A stretch of 64,000 bases of DNA from contig NZ_JAFN01000001.1 of assembly GCF_000526155.1 (NCBI RefSeq), forward strand, positions 4,012,001-4,076,000, read 5' to 3'. Both the position numbers and the translations under genes were made by a program. The first letter of the stretch is position 1, and each line of letters begins with the position of its first letter. This document shows, one piece after another, positions 23,775-61,718 of this stretch. Source of the DNA: Deferrisoma camini S3R1. GTDB lineage: Bacteria > Desulfobacterota > Deferrisomatia > Deferrisomatales > Deferrisomataceae. The notes beneath the pieces were generated by a model. It had not been told where the DNA came from. It searched no databases and saw only the letters and a program-made list of their open reading frames with translations.

Positions 23775-24097
23775 ACGCCTACCGGGTCGAGATCTTCGGC
23801 CAGACCTATGGGCTTCGGAGCCAGGCGGCCGAGGAGCACGTCCAGCGGGTGGCTCGGTTGGTGGACGCGCGGATGCGCGAGGTTGCGGCCCAGACCCGTT
23901 CGGTGGCCACGGTGCAGATCGCCGTGCTGGCCGCCCTGGAGTTGGCCAGCGACCTTTTGGACGAACAGGAGAACCAGCGCAGACTCCTGGAGTGCGTCGA
24001 GAGTCGGTGTGCCGAACTGGTGAGGCGCATCGACAGCCGGGTGCCCGAAGCGCGCCCGGATGCCGAAGAAGAGGTGGTTCCCCTGCTGTGTTCGTGA
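23771..24097 (+). CDS. zapA: Cell division protein ZapA
   Basis: FtsZ-ring bundling protein of 108 aa. The N terminus YRVEIFGQTYGLRSQAAEEHVQRVARLVD fits the ZapA fold, followed by helices TVQIAVLAALELASDLLDEQ and a coiled C terminus. GTG 23771 overlaps the zapB stop (GTGTGA). The last 18 bases (24080-24097) also form the 5' strand of the 6S RNA closing stem, so transcript ends and codons are shared here. Confidence 0.88.
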   Translation: MNAYRVEIFGQTYGLRSQAAEEHVQRVARLVDARMREVAAQTRSVATVQIAVLAALELASDLLDEQENQRRLLECVESRCAELVRRIDSRVPEARPDAEEEVVPLLCS

Positions 24098-24258
24098 TTC
24101 CGAATGGAAGCTGTTGAGCCAACGCAACGGTAGACGGGAGCCTTCCCTGGCCGTGGACCGTGCTCCCCTTCGCGGGGAACCGACGAAGCGGCCACAGGGC
24201 GCCCACCTTTCCATCCGAGGTTCAACCGAACCTTAAGGAACACGGCACGAGCGGGGGA
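24080..24258 (+). ncRNA. ssrS: 6S RNA candidate
   Basis: Predicted regulator of the housekeeping RNA polymerase. Directly downstream of zapA, a usual ssrS location, about 179 nt fold as expected. The closing stem pairs CCCCTGCTGTGTTCGTG (24080-24096) with CACGGCACGAGCGGGG (24241-24256) with small bulges, and TTCC/GGAA continues it. Inside, a central region contains a small 3'-side hairpin AGGTTC/GAACCT (about 24218-24233). The apical arm has CCCTGGCCG pairing with CGGCCACAGGG and a CCCCTTCGCGGGG tip. Length and three-part layout match E. coli 6S RNA. The 5' end overlaps zapA. Confidence 0.75.
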
Positions 24259-24389
24259 CTTGTTCTCCTCGCCTTCCCGCAAGCGTTCCTCTCCGTCCCC
24301 GCTCCTGGGGAACTTCCCGCCGAACCGCCTTCCACACCCCCCCCGCCGGTCCGGCTTGGGACCGTGCGTCGATCAGGAGAGGAGCGTCC

Positions 24390-55883: not shown

Positions 55884-55913
55884 TTGACATGATCCACAAT
55901 TACACTGTATAGT
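55884..55913 (+). promoter_or_regulatory. Strong sigma-70 promoter for the first ArsR operon
   Basis: TTGACA (55884-55889, consensus) and TATAGT (55908-55913, 5 of 6) are separated by 18 bases, 25 bp before the arsR start codon. The -10 is embedded in the putative operator, as expected for derepression by metal. Confidence 0.8.
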
Positions 55914-55937: not shown

Positions 55938-56318
55938 ATGTCCCGCCCCGGCTCCGACCTGTTTCCCATGCTCGACCCCTGCACGGCCAAGACTCCGGTG
56001 GAGGAGCGCCCGCTGCTCGACCCCGGGGAGGCCCGACAGGTGGCGACGATGTTCAAGATTCTGGCCAACGACACCCGGGTCCGGCTGCTCCACGCCCTGG
56101 TGCGCACCCCCGGGCTGTGCGTGGGGGAACTCGCCGACGATCTCGGCATGAAGCCCCAGGCCGTGTCGAACCAGCTCCAGCGGCTCGCGGACCGGGGAAT
56201 CGTGGAGCCCGAGCGCCGGGGCACCCAGGTGTGCTACCGCATCGTGGACCCGTGCGTGGTCCAGCTCCTGTCGTACGGGCTGTGCCTGGCCGAGGACGCC
56301 GAGGCCCGCCGGGGCTGA
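55938..56318 (+). CDS. ArsR/SmtB-family metal-responsive repressor
   Basis: Winged-helix repressor of 126 aa. The HTH is MFKILANDTRVRLLHALVRTPG then LADDLGMKPQAVSNQLQRLADRGIVEPERRG. Candidate metal ligands are Cys15, Cys61 (LCVGEL, the position of the ArsR/CadC alpha-3 site but with one cysteine rather than CxC), Cys99, Cys106 and Cys116. The metal is unknown. AAAGGAG precedes ATG 55938. It leads an operon with an exported protein and an FtsX-type ABC transporter. Confidence 0.9.
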   Translation: MSRPGSDLFPMLDPCTAKTPVEERPLLDPGEARQVATMFKILANDTRVRLLHALVRTPGLCVGELADDLGMKPQAVSNQLQRLADRGIVEPERRGTQVCYRIVDPCVVQLLSYGLCLAEDAEARRG

Positions 56319-56399
56319 TGGGGGCCCACAGCCAGCCGCACCCAGCGCGGCCCTGCCGGCGGCGCCGGCGGGACGCCAACCCATCCGGAGGGTTTCACC

Positions 56400-56783
56400 A
56401 TGCACCACCGAATCCGTCTCTCTTTTTTCGCCCTTGGACTCGCCTTCCTCGCCGGCTCCGCGTTCGCCGGGTTCGGGTTCCCGTCCGCAAAGGGACTCGA
56501 CGTGTTCGACGTGCTCGCGGACCCGTTCGCGTACCAGGGCGTGATCACCGTGCGGGGCGGGGTCATGGCGGCCGATGTCGGCAAAGGCCGGTTCGAGCTC
56601 GTGGACTACCGGGAGTACCGGGGCTGCCGCAGCGTGAGCTGCGCGCCCAAGTGGCTCACGGTGCTCTACGACGGGGAGCTCCCCAAGAAGCGGGACGTGG
56701 TCGAGGTGGAGGGCGTCATCGAGAAGAATGCGGCCGGCGCCGGGGGGTTCGTGCTCCGGGCCCGGGAGGTCCGGGTCAAATGA
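56400..56783 (+). CDS. Hypothetical exported protein of ABC operon
   Basis: Protein of 127 aa with a signal peptide (RIRLSFFALGLAFLAGSAFAG) and a small domain resembling an OB-type beta barrel: DPFAYQGVITVRGGVMAADVGKGRFELVDYREYRGC, then VVEVEGVIEKN..GFVLRAREV. Two cysteines (GCRSVSC) could bind metal. Its stop overlaps the ATG of the permease, so it is likely a periplasmic partner of the transporter. Confidence 0.75.
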   Translation: MHHRIRLSFFALGLAFLAGSAFAGFGFPSAKGLDVFDVLADPFAYQGVITVRGGVMAADVGKGRFELVDYREYRGCRSVSCAPKWLTVLYDGELPKKRDVVEVEGVIEKNAAGAGGFVLRAREVRVK

Positions 56784-57937
56784 GCTACTGGAAGCTCGTG
56801 TGGAAGAACCTGACCCGCCGCAGGAGCCGGTTTGTCTTCACCCTGTCGGCGATCGCCGTGGGGATCGCGTCGGTGGTGACCCTGCTGTCCCTGGGCACCG
56901 GTCTGGAGGCGGAGATCCGGAAGCAGGCCGACGTGCTCGGCGCCAACCTGGTGGTCACGCCCCGGGGCTGGTGCGCGTACGAGCAGATCTCGGTGCTCAC
57001 CGGCGAGTCCCTGCCCGAGGCGATCCCCAACGACACCGTACAGGCGATCGAGCGGATCGGTGGGCTCGAAGCGGTGCCGTACCTCACCCAGCGGGCGGTC
57101 CTCCACAACCAGCCGGTCCCCCTGGTGGGGATCCTGCCGGAGCGGATGCGGGCGTTCAAGAACTGGCGCGTGGCCCGGGGAGACTACCGGCTCGACGGCT
57201 CCCACGTGGTGGTGGGCTCGGGGATCTCGGACAAGTTTCGACTGGCGGTCGGGGACACGGTGCGGATCCGGGGCCAGGAGTTCGCCGTGAGCGGGATCCT
57301 GGAGCCGGTGGGCAACCGGGACGACCTGGCCGTGTACATGGACCTCGCCGTGGCCCAGAGGCTCTACGGCGCCGGGGACAAGGTGTCGTTCGTGGCGGTC
57401 AGGGTGGACGACATCGGCCGCACCGACGACTACATCGCCGCGATCCAGTCCGCGGCCGACGTGGACGTGGTGTCGGACAAGCAGCTCCTGCGCTCGGTGC
57501 TGGCCATCGTTGGCAGCGTGGGCAACGCCCTCCAGCTGATCGCAGCCGTGGCCGTGCTCGCCGCGTGCTTCGGCATCACCAACACCATGATGACCGCGAT
57601 CTACGAGCGCAGGCGGGAGATCGGCATCCTCGGCGCCCTGGGCGCCGGGAGGGGCACGGTGTTCTCGGTGTTCGTGGGCGAGTCGGCCGTGTACGGGCTC
57701 CTGGGAGGGATCGTGGGCGTGGTGGTGGGGTTCGCGTTCTCGTACTTCGCGGCGCCCTACATCGGCCAGAACGAGTTCACCGCGTTCGTCGGAAGCGAGC
57801 AGAGCGTGAGCGTGTTCGACCTGGGCATCACCATCCAGGCCCTGGTGTTCGCGGTGCTGGTCGCGTCTTTGTCAGGCGTGTACCCCGCCCTGCGGGCCGC
57901 CCGCCTGAGCCCCGTGGAGGCGATCCGCTATGAGTGA
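56780..57937 (+). CDS. FtsX/MacB-type ABC transporter permease
   Basis: Inner-membrane permease of 385 aa with the four-helix FtsX layout: an N-terminal helix (RRRSRFVFTLSAIAVGIASVVTLLSLG), an extracytoplasmic domain (about 45-260), and three C-terminal helices with NTMMTAIYERRREIGILGALGAGRGTVF and final AARLSPVEAIRYE. Works with the ATPase encoded next (8-bp overlap). Under ArsR control, so it may move a metal-related or membrane-stress substrate; this is inference. Confidence 0.88.
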   Translation: MSYWKLVWKNLTRRRSRFVFTLSAIAVGIASVVTLLSLGTGLEAEIRKQADVLGANLVVTPRGWCAYEQISVLTGESLPEAIPNDTVQAIERIGGLEAVPYLTQRAVLHNQPVPLVGILPERMRAFKNWRVARGDYRLDGSHVVVGSGISDKFRLAVGDTVRIRGQEFAVSGILEPVGNRDDLAVYMDLAVAQRLYGAGDKVSFVAVRVDDIGRTDDYIAAIQSAADVDVVSDKQLLRSVLAIVGSVGNALQLIAAVAVLAACFGITNTMMTAIYERRREIGILGALGAGRGTVFSVFVGESAVYGLLGGIVGVVVGFAFSYFAAPYIGQNEFTAFVGSEQSVSVFDLGITIQALVFAVLVASLSGVYPALRAARLSPVEAIRYE

Positions 57938-58604
57938 TCCCATCCTTCGCGCAGAGGGTCTCACCAAGGTCTACGACGGCGGCTACCGGACGGTGGCCCT
58001 GGAGGACGTCACCCTGGAGATCCCCCGGGGCAGCCTCACCTGCATCATGGGCCCCTCCGGCCACGGCAAGAGCACGCTGCTGCACCTGCTGGGGGGGCTC
58101 GACCGTCCCACCAGCGGAAGGGTGTACCTGGACGGAGAGGACCTCACCGCGGCGTCTCCAAGGCGCCTGGCCGGGATCCGAAGCCGCCGCCTGGGGTTCG
58201 TGTTCCAGTTCTTCAACCTGCTGCCGATGCTCACGGCCCTGGAGAACGTACAGACCGCCATGCTCCTGGCCGGCGTTCCCCGCCGGGAGCAGGAGGCCCG
58301 GGCCCGGGAGCTCCTTCGCCTGGTGGGGCTCGAGGACAAGCTCCACGCCAAGCCGAACCAGCTCTCGGGCGGCCAGCGCCAGCGGGTGGCCATCGCCCGG
58401 GCCCTGGCCAACGACCCGGACCTGCTGCTCATGGACGAGCCCACCGGCAACCTGGACAGCCGGTCCGAGGAGGAGCTGCTGGAGCAGGTCCGGGCCGTGC
58501 ACGCCCGGGGCAAGACCGTGGTCATCGTCACCCACTCCGACACCGTGGCCGCCCTGGCCGAGCGGATCGTCACCATCCGGGACGGCCGGGTGGTGACGGG
58601 GTGA
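57930..58604 (+). CDS. LolD/MacB-type ABC transporter ATPase
   Basis: ATPase of 224 aa with Walker A MGPSGHGKSTLLHLLGG, Q-loop VFQFFNLLPMLTALEN, signature [15 protein letters not shown], Walker [15 protein letters not shown] and H-loop IVTHSDTVA. Walker A has a histidine (GHGKS) in place of the commoner Cys/Ala. It overlaps the permease gene by eight bases and ends the operon. Confidence 0.92.
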   Translation: MSDPILRAEGLTKVYDGGYRTVALEDVTLEIPRGSLTCIMGPSGHGKSTLLHLLGGLDRPTSGRVYLDGEDLTAASPRRLAGIRSRRLGFVFQFFNLLPMLTALENVQTAMLLAGVPRREQEARARELLRLVGLEDKLHAKPNQLSGGQRQRVAIARALANDPDLLLMDEPTGNLDSRSEEELLEQVRAVHARGKTVVIVTHSDTVAALAERIVTIRDGRVVTG

Positions 58605-58674: not shown

Positions 58675-58720
58675 TTGACAGGTGTCTTGGGTGCAGGGCA
58701 GTATGCAAATATTCGAATAT
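58675..58720 (+). promoter_or_regulatory. Promoter and ArsR-type operator of the second operon
   Basis: TTGACA (58675-58680) is a consensus -35; CAGTAT (58699-58704, 18-bp spacing) is a weak -10. The perfect 12-bp palindrome ATATTCGAATAT at 58709-58720 lies just downstream and has the AT-rich TTCGAA centre common to ArsR operators. Repression by the protein encoded from 58755 is inferred. Confidence 0.6.
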
Positions 58721-58754: not shown

Positions 58755-59120
58755 ATGAAAGACCTGGACATCCGGGAAAAGGCCGACCTGCTGCGGCTCC
58801 TGGGCCACCCCACCCGGCTCCTGATCCTGGAGGAGCTCGCCCGGGGCGTGAAGTGCGTGACCGACATCCGGGACCTTCTGGACATCCCCCAGCCCAACGT
58901 GTCCCAGCACCTGGCCGTGCTGCGCCAGGCCCGCCTGGTGGACTTCTACGAGGACGGCCAGCTCCGGTGCTACTACCTGCTGCGGCCGGCCCTGGTGGCC
59001 GCGCTCTTGGAGTTCCTGGGGGGCGAGTACCCGGTGGTCAAGCGCGACCGGGAGGACGTGCGCCGCGAAGGCCGGCTGCGGGAGCAAGAGCGGGGCGTGG
59101 CCCCGGCGTGCGAGGGGTGA
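58755..59120 (+). CDS. ArsR-family transcriptional repressor
   Basis: Winged-helix regulator of 121 aa: LLRLLGHPTRLLILEELARGVKCVTDIRDLLDIPQPNVSQHLAVLRQARLVDFYEDG. Cys34 sits where ArsR has ELCVCDL but only one cysteine remains; Cys72 and Cys119 could complete a thiolate site. ATG 58755 is chosen for its GGGAGAG site over ATG 58719, which lies inside the operator. It controls the selenoprotein operon that follows. Confidence 0.9.
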   Translation: MKDLDIREKADLLRLLGHPTRLLILEELARGVKCVTDIRDLLDIPQPNVSQHLAVLRQARLVDFYEDGQLRCYYLLRPALVAALLEFLGGEYPVVKRDREDVRREGRLREQERGVAPACEG

Positions 59121-59140: not shown

Positions 59141-60148
59141 ATGGAGAAACGTCCGTCCAAGGACCAGCGGCGCCACTGGACCGAGGTGTACGCCCGGACG
59201 CCGGCGTTCTTCGGCGAGGAGCCGAGCGAGTTCGCCCGTATGGCGCTGGAGCAGTTCCGGGCCGAGGGCGCCGGCACGGTGCTGGAGCTGGGGTTCGGCC
59301 AGGGCCGCGACACCCTGTTCTTCGCGGAAAACGGCCTGCGGGTCGCGGCCCTGGACTACTCGGAGCAGGCCGTGCGGGAGGTGGAGGCGGCGGCCCGGGC
59401 CCGGGGGCTCGCGGACCGGGTCGAGGCGGGGGTCCACGACGTGCGGGACCCCCTGCCGTTCGGGGAGGGCGCGTTCGACGCGTGCTACGCCCACATGCTC
59501 CTGTGCATGGAACTCACCGAGACCCAGATCGCGTTCGTGCTGGCCGAGCTCCACCGGGTGGTCAAGCCCGGCGGGCTCGTGCTGTACACGGTGCGCAGCG
59601 ACCACGACAAGCACTTTCGGGCCGGCACCCACCTGGGCGAGGACCTCTACGAGGTGGGCGGATTCGTGGTGCACTTCTTCACCGAGGAGAAGGTCCGCCG
59701 CCTCGCCCGGGGGTACGAGGTGCTGGACGTGGGCCGCATGCAGGAAGGCAGCCTGCCCCGGGACCTGTACGTGGTGACCCTTCGAAGGCGTCCGGGACCG
59801 ATGCCGGACCGGGTGGAGGAGACGAACATGGAGAACCCGATGACGCGGTTCGAGGCGTTCTTCGAGACCGCGAAGTCCAACCCGGCGCTGGAGCCCAAGA
59901 CCCGGGGGCTCCTGTTCCTGGCCGCGTCGCTCGCGGCCGGCTGCGAACTCTGAACCGACTGGAGCCTCGCGGTCGCGAGGGAGAGCGGAGCCACCGACGA
60001 AGAGCTGGAAGCCGCCACCGCCATCGCCATGAGCGTGACGGCCCACCAGACCCGCCTGCTGTTCGACAAGATGAAAGGCCGGCATCCCCAGGCCCCGGCG
60101 GCCGGGGAAGGAGAGGCCGCCGGTTGCCACGAGCCGGGGGCCACGTGA
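59141..60148 (+). CDS. Methyltransferase-AhpD-like selenoprotein (in-frame TGA read as Sec)
   Basis: One frame runs through a TGA at 59951-59953 to a TGA at 60146-60148, giving 335 aa. Residues 1-215 are a class I SAM methyltransferase, TehB-like (VLELGFGQGRDTLFFAENGL, HRVVKPGGLVLYTVRSD). From about 230 comes a carboxymuconolactone decarboxylase/AhpD domain: MTRFEAFFETAKSNPALEPK, GLLFLAASLAAGCEL-U-TDWSLAVARESGATDEELEAA. The TGA occupies the second cysteine of the family's CxxC (Cys268, Sec271). Directly downstream, CCTCGC-GGTC-GCGAGG forms a bacterial SECIS-type hairpin 11 bases after TGA. GGAGGAG before ATG 59828 suggests the AhpD part may also be made alone. Without Sec insertion the product is 270 aa. 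Confidence 0.82.
59951..59987 (+). promoter_or_regulatory. SECIS-like selenocysteine insertion hairpin
   Basis: TGA at 59951-59953, then 11 bases, then a perfect 6-bp stem CCTCGC/GCGAGG (59965-59970 and 59975-59980) closing the tetraloop GGTC. The loop begins 18 bases after the TGA, within the range for bacterial SECIS elements, and GGTC resembles the SelB-recognised GGTCT loop of E. coli fdhF. Confidence 0.8.
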
Positions 60149-60211
60149 GGCCGCTGAGCGGTGCTTCGGCGAAGCACGCAAACGAGCCCTCGCGCTGACG
60201 GATCGGCAACG

Positions 60212-60829
60212 ATGCCCGGACGGACGCAAAAGGCACTCCTGTTCCTTGCCCGGGGGTTCGAAGACCTGGAGGCCGCCGCCGTGACCGCGGTCTGCGGCTG
60301 GACCGGGTACCGGGAGCATCTTCCTTCGATCCACCTCACAACCACGGGCCTGCATGCCGAGGTGCAAGGCCGCTTCGGCACCCGGGTCCGGCCCCACCGG
60401 CACCTCGGAGACGTGGACCCGGACGAATACGCCGCCCTGGCCGTGCCCGGGGGCTTTTTCAGCCATGGGTTCGATGAGGCGTTCGATCCCCGCTTGTACC
60501 GGGTCGCCCAGGCGATCCACGCGCGGGGGGGCATGATCGCCACCTGGTGCGTCGGGGTTCTGCCCATCGCCGAGGCGGGCTTGCTGCGGGGCGGGCGGGC
60601 CACCACCTACCGGTTCAGCCGCCATCACGACAACCCGGGACGCCTGCGGGCCCTGGGGTGCGAACCGGTTCCCGCCCCGCTCGTGGTCTGGAACCGGATC
60701 GCTTCGTGCGCCGGTCCCGCCCAGTCCCTCGAGGTGGCCTTCCTCTTGCTGGAATTCCTGGTCGGAGAGGCCGGGGCCGCAGAGGTGCGTCGGTATCTCG
60801 CCGGAACCGATAGAGAGGGCATGGGATGA
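60212..60829 (+). CDS. DJ-1/PfpI-family protein
   Basis: Class I glutamine-amidotransferase-like fold, 205 aa: KALLFLARGFEDLEAAAVTAV, YAALAVPGGFFSHGFDEAFD, and the nucleophile-elbow cysteine in MIATWCVGVLPIAEAGLL. Probable stress-related hydrolase or deglycase-like role; substrate unknown. ATG 60212 has no strong ribosome-binding site, so a start slightly upstream (from 60161) is possible. It overlaps the next gene by four bases. Confidence 0.85.
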   Translation: MPGRTQKALLFLARGFEDLEAAAVTAVCGWTGYREHLPSIHLTTTGLHAEVQGRFGTRVRPHRHLGDVDPDEYAALAVPGGFFSHGFDEAFDPRLYRVAQAIHARGGMIATWCVGVLPIAEAGLLRGGRATTYRFSRHHDNPGRLRALGCEPVPAPLVVWNRIASCAGPAQSLEVAFLLLEFLVGEAGAAEVRRYLAGTDREGMG

Positions 60830-61290
60830 CGACGACCACCTGGAAACGGGCCGTGGCCGTGGGCGCGGCCGTCGGGATCCTGAACCTCGGGCACTACGCG
60901 CTCACCGCGAAGGTCCCCGGTCTCGAGCTGCCGTTCGGCATCTTCCCCGGCGGGTTCCCGGTGGCGGCGGTGTCCGCGGCCGCCGGAAGGCTGACCCCCC
61001 AACTGAAGGTGATGCTGGTGTTCGGGCTGGGGGTGGTGATCGGCGCCGCCGCGAGCGCGTATCGAACGGGCGGATTCGTCTGGCAGGGCCGGGTGCCGGT
61101 GAGGGAGCTGCTCCAGGGGCTGGCCGGCGGGACGGTCATGGCCGTGGGGGTGTGGATGGCCCAGGGGTGTCTCAACAAGCACGGCCTCAGCGGGGCCCCG
61201 GGGCTCATGCTGAGCAGCTGGGTCACGATGGCCGGCATCGCCGCCACGGCGTGGCTCCTGGCCCGACCCGGCCGGCGGGGTGCCCGATGA
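60826..61290 (+). CDS. YeeE/YedE-family half-transporter (first subunit)
   Basis: Inner-membrane protein of 154 aa with about four helices and the half-module pattern of thiosulfate/sulfur-compound importers: FGIFPGGFPVAAVSA, QLKVMLVFGLGVVIGAAASAYRTGGF, GGTVMAVGVWMAQGCLNKHGLSG. The cysteine in AQGC matches the substrate-relay position of the family. Overlaps the second half-transporter by four bases. Confidence 0.85.
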   Translation: MTTTTWKRAVAVGAAVGILNLGHYALTAKVPGLELPFGIFPGGFPVAAVSAAAGRLTPQLKVMLVFGLGVVIGAAASAYRTGGFVWQGRVPVRELLQGLAGGTVMAVGVWMAQGCLNKHGLSGAPGLMLSSWVTMAGIAATAWLLARPGRRGAR

Positions 61291-61718
61291 TCCTGGCGGC
61301 GGTGTTCGTGGTGGGCCTGGCCCTGGGCGTGCTCGTGCAGCGCTCCAGGTTCTGCGTGTTTGGGGCGATGACCGACTGGTTCGGGCAGGGCCGGCCCGAG
61401 CGGGCCCTCATGGTGCTCGCGGCGGTGGCCGTGTTCGGGCTGGTGAACCTCGTGGGCTACCGCCACGGGGCCGAGTACCCGGGGGCCTTGTTTCTCGTCG
61501 GCGGTGCCGTGCAGGCCGTGGGCTACGCTCTCGGCCGGGGCTGTCCCCTCACCCTGCTCGTACGGCTCGGGGAGGGGAGCCGGTTCCACCTGGCGGTGTT
61601 CGCGGGATTCCTGGTGGGCGTGGGGCTGTACACGGGGCTGCTCGCCCGCCCCGTGGAAGCCCTGTTGGGCCCTCTCACGTGGACCGGCGCCCAGACGCTC
61701 GGGGCGTTGTTGCACTGA
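61287..61718 (+). CDS. YeeE/YedE-family half-transporter (second subunit)
   Basis: Inner-membrane protein of 143 aa: VVGLALGVLVQRSRFCVFGAMTDWF, GGAVQAVGYALGRGCPLTLLVRLGEG. The paired cysteine motifs RSRFC and GRGC are those of YeeE/YedE proteins, which move sulfur- or possibly selenium-containing species. Together with the preceding gene it equals one full-length transporter. Location in the selenoprotein operon makes a selenium link attractive but unproven. Confidence 0.87.
   Translation: MILAAVFVVGLALGVLVQRSRFCVFGAMTDWFGQGRPERALMVLAAVAVFGLVNLVGYRHGAEYPGALFLVGGAVQAVGYALGRGCPLTLLVRLGEGSRFHLAVFAGFLVGVGLYTGLLARPVEALLGPLTWTGAQTLGALLH

Follow-up and report, generated by a model that had tools for sequence, protein, structure and literature searches.

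What is encoded at position 59141 of the window (the whole 64,000-nucleotide stretch of Deferrisoma camini S3R1 DNA analyzed here), where does the gene end, and what might its product do? A sequence-only reading had proposed a TehB-like methyltransferase fused to a redox selenodomain, in an operon for which it knew no described counterpart. We found a single frame that runs from the ATG at 59141 through a methyltransferase into a CMD/AhpD domain with no stop at the junction (open reading frame and Pfam; Methyltransf_25 64.8 bits, TehB 31.1 bits and CMD 44.1 bits). In addition, methyltransferase and AhpD are one gene in all 13 distinct AhpD-containing loci, so the notion that homologs are always two separate genes fails. 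Hence, the fusion is real; however, it is already catalogued as NCBIfam NF045649 (2X_seleno_MduS, methyltransferase domain-containing double selenoprotein MduS), and we rejected the idea that it is new.

The 338-aa product matches NF045649 with 500.0 bits over model positions 2-338 of 338 (cut-off 380 bits) and shares the family's domains and number of selenocysteines (Sec), with no essential difference between the window copy and the family. A 2026 review (PMC13188914) credits MduS to Haft & Tolstoy 2025 (mSystems 10:e0141724) and gives it two Sec and a CxxU motif; its passage on the family names no substrate. The sequence comparisons give good support to the gene structure, the family and both Sec codons, and the gene at 59141 is very probably an mduS, with an N-terminal SAM methyltransferase, an AhpD CxxU domain and a disordered arm ending in G-A-T-Sec-Gly-Arg. 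Its features are:

59141..60157, + strand: mduS, predicted methyltransferase-AhpD double selenoprotein of 338 aa (Sec271, Sec336); stop at 60155-60157; NF045649 match
59141..59827, + strand: class I SAM-dependent methyltransferase domain and linker (Pfam, alignment, AlphaFold2, Foldseek)
59815..59830, + strand: possible internal start, GGAGGAG (59815-59821) and ATG 59828, from which a 109-aa AhpD product bearing both Sec would start
59828..60145, + strand: CMD/AhpD domain with CxxU motif (Pfam CMD; 3bey alignment)
59951..59953, + strand: TGA, predicted Sec271; TGA in 11/11 AhpD-containing loci and in G494 and G437
59965..59980, + strand: bSECIS-type hairpin 1, CCUCGC-GGUC-GCGAGG, loop 17 nt past the UGA
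60146..60148, + strand: TGA, predicted Sec336 in the tail T-U-G-R; TGA here in 16/16 loci
60161..60177, + strand: bSECIS-type hairpin 2, GUGCUUC-GGC-GAAGCAC, 3' of the stop, loop 19 nt past the UGA

The redox selenodomain was borne out: the in-frame TGA at 59951-59953 gives CxxU (AAGCEL-U-TDW), Sec271 takes the place of the second CxxC cysteine of 3bey in the alignment, and the order of methyltransferase domain followed by AhpD with CxxU is that of MduS. One relative, G437, has a frameshift within the methyltransferase part of mduS. The AlphaFold2 model has a mean pLDDT of 83.0 with values below 50 at residues 225-232 and 317-338, and these segments, between and after two confident domains, are predicted to be disordered. 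Cys115 and Cys122 lie at, and just past, a strand of the methyltransferase domain.

The end of the gene had been placed at 60148, with products of 335 and 106 aa. We rejected this end because the TGA at 60146-60148 is the second Sec codon; the window tail reads GAT-TGA-GGC-CGC-TGA, so that Sec336 is followed by GGC CGC and the true stop at 60155-60157, which corrects the predicted products to 338 and 109 aa. With 335 aa the protein scores 491.8 bits to NF045649; with 338 aa it reaches 500.0 bits and covers the model to its end, and a second Sec close to the C-terminus is a mark of MduS. The tail pattern T-U-G/S-x-stop is present in all 16 Sec-tailed loci (13 in a first reading and three more, with G200 = L002, G151 = L003 and G516 = L005 counted once as the same contigs), including three without AhpD. 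Ser follows the tail Sec in G285b alone, the other Sec-tailed loci among the 16 having Gly, and the terminal stop two codons past the tail TGA is TAA in G342, G267, L004, L006 and G494. A further candidate, L030, was rejected as a Sec-tailed member since its T-stop-G-R-stop uses TAA and TAG and no TGA.

NF045649 exceeds its cut-off in 8 of 395 genomes of the phylum, with nine matches in total, and is found in 6 of the 12 genomes of the window's own taxonomic order and 4 of the 136 in the order of G342. Two TGA codons fall inside eight of the nine phylum matches; the ninth, G285b, has both on reading, its match stopping short of the tail.

Both UGA codons would be read as Sec through SelA, SelB and tRNA-Sec, the machinery that a bacterial selenoprotein needs, and the window's genome has all three over cut-off (selA 591.7, selB 340.3 and tRNA-Sec 72.6 bits). 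A second match to the tRNA-Sec model (G000:C1:473576-473659, 49.7 bits vs. a gathering score of 47) is perhaps another long-arm tRNA. In the bSECIS model as outlined in PMC13188914, a hairpin with G in its loop lies 16-37 nt past the UGA, and both window hairpins agree, at 17 nt (GGUC) and 19 nt (GGC). Hairpin 1 keeps a 6-bp stem in 11/11 loci, with loops GGTC, AGTT or AGGT; its energy, for the window sequence alone, is no better than that of shuffles (z 0.44). By a script rule, hairpin 2 has its full 7-bp stem at the same place in 9 of 13 loci, the exceptions being G362 (7 bp in a shifted register), G342 (5 bp), L006 (6 bp) and L005 (6 bp in another register; its common stem is 5 bp by eye). 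Shuffles matched the 7-bp cases in 7-84 of 1000 trials, and hairpin 2 is unremarkable by this measure in G342 (296/1000), L005 (270/1000) and L006 (148/1000). Its stem shows paired changes among relatives (GTGCTTC/GAAGCAC, CTGCCTC/GAGGCAG, TCGCTTC/GAAGCGA and ATGCTTC/GAAGCAT). MAFFT misaligned its 3- and 4-nt loops, so pairs were counted by script instead; the resulting tallies mix registers for L005 and G362, where script and eye differ, and the four stems quoted are unaffected. Hence, the case for the hairpins is one of position and paired changes among relatives, not of energy, and the second SECIS gains support from sequence past the stop.

The same evidence bears on whether mduS is a pseudogene, in which nonsense codons would disrupt a plain methyltransferase-AhpD reading frame and no Sec would be inserted. 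The region does decay: the DJ-1 gene is frameshifted in G151 and G267, G223 keeps no more than a 44-aa piece of it, and G200 has none. However, both positions are TGA and never TAA or TAG in every distinct AhpD-containing locus read, the hairpins are conserved, and the host genome has Sec genes, so we consider a pseudogene highly improbable. The missing and damaged DJ-1 copies (G200, L065 and L059 some 1.1-1.7 kb past the mduS start, and L061) may reflect repeated decay or assembly errors.

The AhpD-less loci tell what the tail may serve. L006 and two copies in G362 are Sec-tailed and lack AhpD, with tails GKT-U-GV, GKT-U-GT and GFT-U-GT; without AhpD, L006 still passes the NF045649 cut-off (436.3 bits) and the tested G362 copy fails it (330.5 bits). 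That G362 carries two such mduS-like genes (L099 and L066) is an observation in its own right. Since the tail is kept in these three loci, it belongs to the methyltransferase and cannot serve AhpD alone. In the 13-row alignment A3, the invariant residues include Cys115, Cys122, Gly333, Thr335 and Sec336. Methyltransferases of this family often lack the tail, however, and 4 of the 13 tail-less rows that the genome-contig profile scan supplied (L017 was dropped for its broken frame) have both Cys, as do nine tail-less phylum rows (L038 was displayed by neither tail script). Hence, Cys115 and Cys122 are not exclusive to Sec-tailed members, which counts against the explanation that we prefer below.

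A related layout exists on another methyltransferase. In ArsM_AhpD_UU (NF041537), too, a methyltransferase is fused to a homologous AhpD CxxU domain and another TGA follows toward the C-terminus, but that methyltransferase is of the ArsM type with its own Sec, and MduS reaches 93.4 bits against its model, over the AhpD part only, vs. a cut-off of 510. Three of the best five ArsM-AhpD loci listed were read (L073 and L075 were not properly read); each has an additional TGA close to its C-terminus, in the exact U-x-x-stop form in L074 only. We think it unlikely, but worth stating, that the tail is a transplantable selenol arm (G-x-T-Sec-G/S-x-stop) of the methyltransferase, and that AhpD, equipped with a ribosome-binding site of its own, was placed between enzyme and arm as a dispensable reductase cassette. 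Two methyltransferase families, MduS and ArsM, would then have come by this layout, yielding self-reducing enzymes that do without external thioredoxin and also a separate double-Sec AhpD.

The label TehB-like proved loose. The methyltransferase shares the class I fold with the TehB tellurite methyltransferase, the top PDB matches of the MduS model in Foldseek being class I methyltransferases that include TehB (2xva, 2xvm and 4dq0), and Pfam TehB does match. The TehB equivalog models, however, are far under their cut-offs (TIGR00477 34.1 of 219.5, NF008405 35.4 of 218 and NF008992 40.6 of 303 bits), and TehB is not known to carry Sec or AhpD. Thioredoxin reductase ends in a GCUG tail with Sec, likewise near the C-terminus; the likeness is one of position. 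The UXX-star selenoproteins, named in PMC13188914, also have Sec a few residues from the C-terminus, the MduS arm differing in that it follows a methyltransferase or AhpD.

Whether the gene makes a second product depends on the junction, where a ribosome-binding site and start codon had been noted. Both are present, GGAGGAG and the in-frame ATG 59828 lying six bases apart, and the Shine-Dalgarno sequence is stronger there (-9.3 kcal/mol) than at the mduS start (-5.9 kcal/mol). We found a junction Shine-Dalgarno sequence of -8 kcal/mol or better with AUG or GUG in 12 of the 13 loci tested, which include the AhpD-less L006: it is -8.1 or better in 11 loci (L006 among them; G200, a near copy of the window with an identical junction, was excluded from this set), -8.5 in G494 and -5.3 in G437. 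Of the remaining 195 in-frame start codons in 11 genes, only 8 match this strength, and the linker around the site is otherwise variable. This pattern favors the 338-aa fusion plus an excess of free 109-aa double-Sec AhpD that would act as a general reductase. Yet selection on the internal site at the nucleotide level was unsupported by synonymous-codon shuffles (combined p 0.40); these reproduce the observed strength as often as the amino acids predict, so a conserved Glu-Glu may be the cause and not the effect. Moreover, L006 retains the site and ATG without any AhpD, the G437 site is weak, and reading three ArsM-AhpD junctions by eye showed a clear Shine-Dalgarno sequence at one. Hence, two products are plausible from the conserved site but gain nothing significant from the codon control, and we regard them as a possible, rather doubtful reading.

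The genes around mduS are:

55938..56318, + strand: second ArsR-family regulator (ArsR1), promoter-like site at 55884-55913
56400..56783, + strand: small protein of secreted appearance, two-Cys motif, unmatched in Pfam and NCBIfam
56780..57937, + strand: MacB/LolC-type ABC permease (PF12704 88.3 bits, PF02687 74.6 bits)
57930..58604, + strand: LolD/MacB-type ABC ATPase (profile match)
58709..58720, no strand: 12-bp palindrome ATATTCGAATAT, possible ArsR operator, single exact copy in the genome
58755..59120, + strand: ArsR/SmtB-family regulator (ArsR2), 121 aa (HTH_metalloreg 77.7 bits, cut-off 55; HTH_5)
60212..60829, + strand: DJ-1/PfpI-family protein (PF01965 54.5 bits; TIGR01383 45.1 of 131 needed)
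60826..61290, + strand: YeeE/YedE-type transporter, C-terminal half (PF04143, Sulf_transp, positions 180-310 of 310)
61287..61718, + strand: YeeE/YedE-type transporter, N-terminal half (PF04143, Sulf_transp, positions 1-114 of 310)

The order first read, ArsR, methyltransferase-AhpD, DJ-1/PfpI and two Sulf_transp halves, is present in the window, with the C-terminal transporter half encoded ahead of the N-terminal half; the list was incomplete in that it omitted the upstream set of ArsR, secreted protein, ABC permease and ATPase (55938-58604), some members of which are again found close to MduS in relatives. ArsR2 most likely starts at 58755 and not at the first ATG, 58719, judging by Shine-Dalgarno strength (-8.2 vs. 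+0.9 kcal/mol). Ahead of it, ATATTCGAATAT is the sole exact copy in the 4.24-Mb genome, and 0.03 copies are expected in the window with up to two mismatches. ArsR2 carries KCVTDI and ArsR1 LCVGEL, neither being the arsenite-type ELCVCDL; this motif, with its CVC, is the classical arsenite-binding motif of ArsR, and the ArsR neighbor of mduS in G267 does carry it. The ArsR2 frame from 58719 scores 50.8 bits vs. the 155 of BigR (NF040642), and the N-terminal transporter half 30.2 bits vs. the 200 of the YedE selenium transporter (TIGR04112).

We looked for the five-gene order in relatives using tblastn of the window proteins (E <= 1e-5, one run 1e-4) at the 16 loci, some of which are cut by contig ends (the L005 contig ends just downstream of mduS), and found it in 1/16, the window only, so that a conserved five-gene operon is unsupported. 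DJ-1 directly follows mduS in 5/16: intact in the window and G285a, and damaged in G151, G267 and G223. The split YeeE/YedE is in 3/16 (window, G151 and G200, the last with its halves collapsed to one frame), and ABC exporter genes are in 4/16 (window, G200, G267 and, for the ATPase only, G362). The small secreted protein, which relatives also encode together with a MacB/LolC-type exporter near mduS, has a homolog close to the gene in G267 and a look-alike, judged by eye, in G265. G267, G200 and G151 each carry, close to mduS, a Cys/Met PLP enzyme (PF01053, 429 bits) along with a second methyltransferase; TauE-like neighbors in G151 and L004, and mercury-type genes further down in G151, were named by eye. 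Weak matches to the second methyltransferase inside G342 and G265 are mduS itself. In G200 (L063), two extra small genes lie between ArsR2 and mduS, about 760-30 bases before the latter: a short membrane protein and a CpxP-like-looking protein without family match.

The recurring neighbors point to metalloid, selenium or sulfur chemistry; the first reading had suggested a metalloid (As, Se or Te) methylation and thiol/selenol redox system. Such a link would fit the neighbors, and the substrate is our inference. Most likely, MduS methylates a soft nucleophile (metalloid, chalcogen or thiol) and holds its selenol reductase and a Sec arm within the same protein. The methyltransferase would act on a trivalent metalloid, reduced Se or Te, or a thiol or sulfide; the Sec336 arm may bind the substrate, or its oxidized form, and carry it to a site near Cys115 and Cys122; and the AhpD CxxU pair would re-reduce arm or substrate between turns, all in one chain. 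ArsM relies on external thiol systems, and AhpD in MduS may do what these do for ArsM. ArsR2 and the single ATATTCGAATAT site could make the operon self-regulated and inducer-released, and the YeeE/YedE halves, DJ-1 and the ABC exporter might move or scavenge substrate or product. We take the sulfur/selenium-type transporters, the Cys/Met PLP enzyme and ArsR as support, and hold the mechanism as a whole tentatively, as somewhat short of probable. Besides the shared Cys pair, the preferred explanation has against it the ordinary energy of hairpin 1, the weakness of hairpin 2 by itself in G342, L005 and L006, the lack of the classical CVC motif in ArsR1 and ArsR2, and the loci G342, G494 and G437, where mduS stands without the window neighbor genes in tblastn. 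Should MduS prove to methylate As, Se or Te using a reductase of its own, this would be important to the bacterial cycling of these elements.

Part of the same neighborhood can be read as a sulfur operon instead, with MduS as a thiol or sulfide S-methyltransferase (for sulfide, persulfide or methanethiol) and Sec protecting it from oxidation. The YeeE/YedE halves in the window, the TauE-like genes, and the Cys/Met PLP enzyme with the second methyltransferase all suit it. A related Sec architecture, though, is fused to an arsenite methyltransferase in NF041537, and the G267 regulator with ELCVCDL and the mercury-type genes of G151 point away from sulfur, so we treat the sulfur operon as conceivable but rather improbable. 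Elsewhere in the window, a 6S RNA lies at 24077-24261 (80.8 bits).
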